Under the pieces are notes generated by a model. The model did not search any database. It saw nothing but the letters and a program-made list of their open reading frames with translations, and was not told where the DNA came from. Below, piece by piece: positions 57,369 through 58,975 of a stretch of 64,000 nucleotides of DNA. Origin of the DNA: Archaeoglobus sp. (lineage in GTDB: Archaea > Halobacteriota > Archaeoglobi > Archaeoglobales > Archaeoglobaceae). The DNA is taken from the NCBI GenBank assembly GCA_017656505.1, contig JACDNU010000002.1, positions 1 through 64,000 on the forward strand. The letters are read 5' to 3'. Position 1 is the first letter of the stretch. Every line of letters starts with the position of its first letter. A program made the position numbers and the translations under genes.

Positions 57369-58007
57369 ATGTTCAAAGGGATAAGGAAAATTCTGGTTGG
57401 TGGAGAGAAGGAAAAAGAGATCCTAGATCTCATCAGAGAGCACATAGAAAAGCTCAGTGAGGCTGCAGAAACCCTTAAAATTGCCATAGAGAACAATGAC
57501 CCCTCTCTGAACTACGAAATATGTGAGCTTGAAAGAATAGGGGATGTAATAAGGAGAGAGATTGCGCTTCGATTGTACGAGGGTGCTTTTCTTCCCGCTG
57601 TAAGAGCTGAATTTTACCGATTTTCAGAGCTTGTTGATGAGAGCATAGATCTCATTGAGGATACATCCGTGTACTTTAGCATGATGGCGGGAATAAATCC
57701 GGAGATAAGAGACCTCTGCGTTAGAATTGCTGAGCTGAACTGCAAAATGGTCGATTATCTCTATCATGCGTTCGATTCGCTGGAAAAGGAGCTCGATCTC
57801 ACGGATAAGACGATAAAACTCAGGGCTAAGGAGCAGGAAATTGATGGGCTGAAAAGGGAAATTCATTCGAAGATGGTCAAAATAGACATCAAGTCTTTCT
57901 GGGAAGGATACATCCTATCAAACTTCCTTGATAACCTTGTCAACATCAGCGACAAGATAGAGGATGCAGCAGACGTCATTCAGATCCTCAATGTGAGTCT
58001 TAGATAG
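57369..58007 (+). CDS. DUF47 / PhoU-like phosphate transport regulator
   Basis: 212 residues, mostly helices, in the layout of the DUF47 family (LIREHIEKLSEAAETLKIAIENNDPSL, CELERIGDVIRREIALRLYEGAFLPAVRAEFYRF, SFWEGYILSNFLDNLVNISDKIEDAADVIQI). Such proteins accompany Pit phosphate transporters and modulate them. GGGTGGA precedes ATG at 57369. A PiT gene follows 32 nt later on the same strand. Confidence 0.9.
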   Translation: MFKGIRKILVGGEKEKEILDLIREHIEKLSEAAETLKIAIENNDPSLNYEICELERIGDVIRREIALRLYEGAFLPAVRAEFYRFSELVDESIDLIEDTSVYFSMMAGINPEIRDLCVRIAELNCKMVDYLYHAFDSLEKELDLTDKTIKLRAKEQEIDGLKREIHSKMVKIDIKSFWEGYILSNFLDNLVNISDKIEDAADVIQILNVSLR

Positions 58008-58026
58008 CTTAAATTGGGGCTGAAAC

Positions 58027-58042
58027 AGGGGGACGAAGCATT
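58027..58042 (+). promoter_or_regulatory. Ribosome site with an ATT start codon for PiT
   Basis: AGGGGGA at 58027-58033 lies 6 nt before ATT at 58040. The reading frame of the phosphate transporter is open from 58013 with no ATG, GTG or TTG in frame until 58172, and homologous N-terminal residues start right at 58040. The spacing suggests an ATT start. Confidence 0.6.
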
Positions 58043-58975
58043 CTCGAGATAATCACACCGCTTATCGCCGCAGCCTTCATAGCCTTCAGCATAGGCTCAA
58101 ACGATTCCTCAAATTCCTTCGGGATATCTATAGGCTGCGGAGTTGTAAGCTTTAAAAGAGCGATCTACCTCTTGGTATTCCTAGTTTTTCTCGGAATGAT
58201 TATCCAGGGCCAGAATGTTATGAAAACAGTTGGTAAAGATCTAGTATCCCTCAGAATCGAAATAATCAGTATATCTTTGATAATATCTTCCCTTGCAATC
58301 GTTCTTTCGAACTGGAAAAAAGTTCCCGTTTCGAGCCATCAGGCAATAGTTAGCAGTCTTGTAGGCTCGGGATTTGCGTTTGGTGTTTCCGTTGATGTGG
58401 GCATCCTGCTGAAAATAGTTGAGTCCTGGATTGTCTCTCCGATCGGTGCGTTCTTCTTATCCATTCTGGTTTACAGAATTTTGGAGAGGGGATTGGCAAG
58501 GGTCCCACCGCTGAGAGCTGAAAGGTACATCAGATACCTTCTCCTCCTCAGCGGGAGTGTGATAGCCTACAACACCGGAGCCAACGAGCTCGCCACAGCT
58601 TTAGGGCCGGTGGTTTACTTTGGCCTCCTGACACCTCTGCAGGCTGCTTTCATGGGAGCCATACTCCTCTGGGCAGGAGCCTTCATGCTCAGTGGAAGGG
58701 TTGTGGAAACCATAGGTAAAGGGATTACCGCATTAGATCCTTTCTCAGGCTTTGCCGCACAGTTTGGTGCCGGATTGAGCGTGCTCTTTTTTACAACCCT
58801 CGGTATGCCTGTTTCAACGACCTACTGCGTTATAGGAAGCATCCTAGGCGTTGGAATGCTTAAAAGCACTAGGACGGCGAAATCTCCTTTTCTACGAAAA
58901 ATATTTCTCAGCTGGGTTATCACTCCCTTCGTAGCCCTCACTTTGGGTTATATTTTTGCTAGATTGCTTTTCTGA
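58040..58975 (+). CDS. PiT-family inorganic phosphate transporter (probable ATT start)
   Basis: About 311 residues. The N-terminal residues encoded from 58040 (LEIITPLIAAAFIAFSIGSND, then SSNSFGISIG) hold the PiT signature GSND, and the repeat YNTGANELATALGPVVYFG recurs in the second half; about ten membrane spans are visible. It imports phosphate with sodium or protons. No conventional start codon exists upstream of 58172, which would cut off the GSND signature. It follows the DUF47 gene and is probably coupled to it. Confidence 0.85.
   Translation: MLEIITPLIAAAFIAFSIGSNDSSNSFGISIGCGVVSFKRAIYLLVFLVFLGMIIQGQNVMKTVGKDLVSLRIEIISISLIISSLAIVLSNWKKVPVSSHQAIVSSLVGSGFAFGVSVDVGILLKIVESWIVSPIGAFFLSILVYRILERGLARVPPLRAERYIRYLLLLSGSVIAYNTGANELATALGPVVYFGLLTPLQAAFMGAILLWAGAFMLSGRVVETIGKGITALDPFSGFAAQFGAGLSVLFFTTLGMPVSTTYCVIGSILGVGMLKSTRTAKSPFLRKIFLSWVITPFVALTLGYIFARLLF

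Follow-up and report, generated by a model that had tools for sequence, protein, structure and literature searches.

Where does translation begin in a gene whose reading frame has no ATG, GTG or TTG ahead of its conserved signature? This question is raised by a gene for a PHO4/PiT-family anion permease from Archaeoglobus sp., located in the window, which is the whole stretch of 64,000 nucleotides that was analysed. An earlier note on this DNA had described the PiT frame as opening at 58013, with AGGGGGA 6 nt ahead of an ATT codon and with the GSND signature encoded upstream of the first standard start. All of these positions were found to be exact. The features of the gene pair to which the permease gene belongs are as follows:

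57369..58007, + strand: DUF47/PhoU-like gene (PhoU_div, TIGR00153), first of the pair; 129 bits to Pfam PF01865 and 144 bits to NCBIfam TIGR00153 (cut-off 104 bits)
58010..58012, + strand: in-frame stop codon TAA, closing the PiT frame upstream
58014..58052, + strand: out-of-frame mini-ORF starting with TTG, absent from relatives
58027..58033, + strand: Shine-Dalgarno sequence AGGGGGA, whose AGGGGG can pair with UCCUCC at the 3' end of 16S
58040..58042, + strand: inferred start codon ATT (AUU), six bases behind AGGGGGA; five species have GGGGG-N7-AT[TC], sister genera have ATG at the corresponding position
58040..58975, + strand: anion permease of the PHO4/PiT family, 311 codons and a stop (PF01384; PDB 6l85)
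58094..58105, + strand: GSND signature, 18 codons after ATT
58172..58174, + strand: TTG, the first in-frame standard start, within the conserved protein; rejected as start

In the ORF listing, the frame of the DUF47 gene opens with TTG 57342, and its start is probably ATG 57369. For the permease gene, TTG 58172 lies 44 codons past ATT and 26 codons past the G of GSND. From the comparison of related sequences, the start of the PiT gene is almost certainly the ATT.

The permease and its homologues outside the genus

The open frame was assigned to the PHO4 family (PF01384) with 202.2 bits against a cut-off of 33.7, the match beginning at residue 27. The best NCBIfam model is that of the sulfate permease CysP, which at 150 bits is far below its cut-off of 400, so that phosphate is here a putative substrate. 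A match was also obtained to the solved phosphate transporter PDB 6l85 (E=1.3e-29), in which residue 10 corresponds to residue 10 when counted from ATT. The two permeases thus share the family and the signature, with their N-termini in register, although the signature reads GSND[ST]SN here and GANDVAN in 6l85. It is GANDAAN in L002, a classical PiT paralogue with an ordinary ATG that is also present in the window's genome. The upstream DUF47 gene is common to the pair in the window and to known PiT/PHO4 systems, whereas the start codon differs. At G023:C73:9601-10474, another copy of this type of PiT gene was identified, the second one; its pieces lie in two different frames, each of them containing a stop, and it is probably decaying.

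Beyond the genus, about 20 loci of archaea and 16 of bacteria were examined, including those of sister genera, Nitrospirota, Thermodesulfovibrionales and deltaproteobacterial relatives, and all of these homologues have ATG at the place where AUU or AUC (AUY) stands here. The earlier note had placed the ATT at the N-terminus of homologues. The ATG precedes GSND by 17 codons in nearly all cases and by 14 in some, and one inserted codon puts the ATT of the window at 18 codons. In the protein tree, the five AUY genes form one clade with a support of 97/94, so that a single change from AUG to AUY suffices.

Conservation of the start region within the genus

The gene is present in five genomes of the genus, namely those of the window, G003, G001, G005 and G002, with 72-87% identity to the gene of the window. 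The start regions of Archaeoglobus sp. JdFR-27, UBA234 and JdFR-32 are those of G003, G001 and G002. For the sixth genus member, G004 (80% complete), the paralogue was identified and the gene itself was not found. In all five, the C-terminus of DUF47 (..LNVS[LM]R*) is encoded upstream, with a spacer of 11-41 nt that varies in length and sequence. An ungapped alignment of the start regions shows GGGGG, a spacing of exactly 7 nt, and then ATT in three members (window, L003, L004) or ATC in two (L005, L006). The pattern GGGGG-N7-ATY alone occurs twice in the window, with 4.2 occurrences expected by chance; that all five genus members have it at the same point, the start of the gene, goes beyond chance. 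The comparison with relatives, which the earlier note had suggested as a check, therefore favours the rare ATT start that it had considered, since an AUY codon and the Shine-Dalgarno spacing are kept in each of the five members that carry the gene, all from separate assemblies. Because related species share ATT or ATC and the same Shine-Dalgarno sequence at the same distance, this trait is old and maintained, and not a sequencing error.

In four of the five (window, L003, L004, L005), no ATG, GTG or TTG precedes the conserved N-terminus. Their first standard starts lie +26, +34, +34 and +42 codons after GSND, respectively, at places that are not homologous. The fifth, G002 (L006/L034), contains GGGGG-N7-ATC and, four codons further on, an additional ATG that occupies the usual position. 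This ATG has no Shine-Dalgarno sequence in range, with a duplex of -0.1 kcal/mol compared to -10.3 for the ATC. We lean towards ATC as the start in G002; it might instead be the ATG, hence four species are certain and one is ambiguous.

Runs of G are prone to errors, and according to the second explanation offered in the earlier note the G-run has undergone a frameshift or was wrongly sequenced, so that a normal upstream start, TTG 58014, is concealed. This TTG exists, and its frame, which is different from the PiT frame, crosses the start site and extends over 12 codons to TAA 58050-58052. However, the TTG is not shared by relatives, and the mini-ORF was judged to be irrelevant. The same run of five Gs with the same spacing is present in five species, and in L003 an in-frame TAG ends 3 nt before the ATT, with no standard start between them. 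When the other two frames were listed for each species, no standard-start frame overlapping the site from upstream was identified in L003 and L004. The genome of L005 is complete in one contig of 2,076,931 bases, so that draft assembly errors are no explanation for its ATC. A start hidden by an error or by a real frameshift is thus highly improbable. Short frames near the start were also noted in relatives. In L003, L004 and L005, an out-of-frame TTG is located at +4 from AUY (+1 frame), with a stop two codons on, so that it overlaps the start; the window and L006 are without it. The spacer of L004 contains a short tandem repeat (CTTAGGTAAAAAGGG twice), giving a four-codon mini-ORF, ATG AGT CTT AGG TAA, which is preceded by AAAGGGTGA and directly followed by the GGGGG-N7-ATT start.

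For the N-terminal 42 codons, located before the first standard start of the window, 22-35 third-position changes were counted per species pair, against 4-9 at first and 1-6 at second positions. With pN of 0.07-0.15 and pS at or near saturation, the protein encoded here is, by its substitution pattern, under strong purifying selection. This bears on the view that a shorter protein is made from an internal standard codon, TTG 58172 in the window, to which gene finders restricted to ATG, GTG and TTG are forced. An internal start would drop GSND and the first helix, both of which are under purifying selection and belong to an N-terminus present in all outside homologues, and the position of the first standard start changes from one species to the next, making such a product very unlikely. 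A DUF47-PiT fusion by programmed frameshifting or readthrough, for which the two genes are close enough in all five species, is hardly credible, since the spacer holds no common slippery site and varies in length and sequence, in L003 and L004 neither of the other frames is open, and the PiT gene of sister genera starts at its own ATG.

Shine-Dalgarno strength and the search for similar genes

The 16S tail of the genus mate G005 is GGATCACCTCCT. The Shine-Dalgarno duplex of the window has an energy of -9.1 kcal/mol, which is within the strongest 18% of starts. For the AUY codons of the five species, values of -9.0 to -10.3 kcal/mol were obtained, which places them among the strongest 11-19% when compared with 422 conserved starts, whose median is -3.9 kcal/mol. 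A GGGGG at 5-9 nt is found at 1.9% of ordinary starts in G000 and likewise in G005, where 7 nt is its commonest spacing. Several of the ATG homologues outside the genus have weak Shine-Dalgarno sequences (0.6 to -1.9), and others are at about -7. For the weak starts GUG and UUG, compensation by a strong Shine-Dalgarno sequence has been reported (PMC5622118), and the strong sequence next to a presumably weak AUY start would fit this pattern.

To place the gene among others, 756 kb of the window's 2.52 Mb genome were compared with the whole of G005, giving 557 non-overlapping orthologue pairs. In only one of them, the PiT gene, a long and well conserved part precedes any standard start in both species, with 37 of 47 residues identical. 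The other entries flagged in this screen were rejected as short or antisense-like ORFs, or as an occasional chance match ahead of a normal start. A coding-signal scan of the whole of G005 resulted in 129 weak candidates; among those inspected no case was shown to be conserved, and they appear to be fragments, frameshifted genes or cases in a single genome. Two loci on the minus strand of G005:C1 were noted. At about 506416-506800, a nucleotidyltransferase-like gene (..EEIKKKIKKILAEKDEVIFAYLHGSF..) has no ATG, GTG or TTG before its coding signal. The end of the upstream gene holds GAGGAGGTGA, with an ACG 6 nt behind it; among the loci compared, no relative of the nucleotidyltransferase-like gene was found. 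At about 494746-495610, the N-terminal part of a histone-deacetylase/AcuC-like gene continues in another frame, an apparent frameshift.

Probable initiation at AUU and its possible role

Shine-Dalgarno-led initiation by Met-tRNAi at AUU 58040 is very probable, AUU or AUC having replaced AUG once at the base of the genus and having been kept since; the use of AUY is inferred from the comparison of the related genes. AGGGGG would pair with the 16S tail and thereby hold the 30S subunit, and the seven bases after the G-run would place AUU in the P site. Met-tRNAi would pair with AUU through two of the three bases, the mismatch at the third position being tolerated, and Met would be inserted. A special initiator tRNA reading AUY was considered and rejected, since G005 contains the expected three CAU tRNAs and one GAU tRNA-Ile. 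In archaea, codons other than AUG are discriminated against at initiation (PMC6237735), and aIF1 destabilises initiation complexes formed on them (PMC6237735, PMC8211752). Because of this property of aIF1, the AUU start should be weak and aIF1-sensitive, and the weak start would lower or regulate the output of the transporter relative to the upstream DUF47 gene. An odd start of aIF1 itself was likewise discounted, the aIF1 gene of a genus mate having ATG.

Whether such a start serves regulation is a separate matter. There is an even chance that AUY arose by drift as a start with mildly harmful effects, for which the strong Shine-Dalgarno sequence makes up, and that it has no regulatory use; this would rival regulation, not initiation at AUY. 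It is consistent with the compensation seen for weak starts (PMC5622118). Moreover, no conserved RNA structure was identified at the start in five folds (z-scores of -0.01 to 1.23), and no other regulatory element was found there. Against it, AUG is one base change away, yet four or five lineages, saturated at synonymous sites, have kept AUY, and this retention speaks mildly for a use in control. Tentatively, and with a lower probability than drift, AUU/AUC might be a maintained control device, in which a start that is weak against aIF1 proofreading and dependent on the strong Shine-Dalgarno sequence sets or senses the level of the anion transporter relative to its DUF47/PhoU-like partner.

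Such a device would be an archaeal counterpart of the control of infC and sigR. In bacteria, infC, coding for IF3, has ATT in E. coli and ATC in Streptomyces, and IF3 controls both infC (AUU) and sigR (GTC) (PMC5472188). Like the PiT gene, infC has kept AUU/AUC across species, with a near-cognate mismatch at the third base (PMC5472188). However, the infC product is the very factor that rejects AUU, hence its autoregulation, whereas the product here is a permease and not a discriminating initiation factor, and in archaea the proofreading is performed by aIF1. Streptomyces sigR is closer in that it lies outside the translation machinery and has a noncanonical start, which is read through initiation-factor fidelity (PMC5472188). 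It differs in codon and domain of life, and its regulation was demonstrated experimentally, while that of the PiT gene is a hypothesis.

No natural archaeal AUU or AUC start was found in the literature searched, subscription journals being mostly outside its reach. As far as this literature shows, a lineage-conserved AUU/AUC start in an archaeal transporter is new in domain and in gene type. Gene finders limited to the three standard start codons truncate the PiT gene or miss it. The question is raised why AUG, one base change away, was not regained, and the genus-wide AUU/AUC start would lend itself, as a natural substrate, to tests of how aIF1 proofreads start codons.
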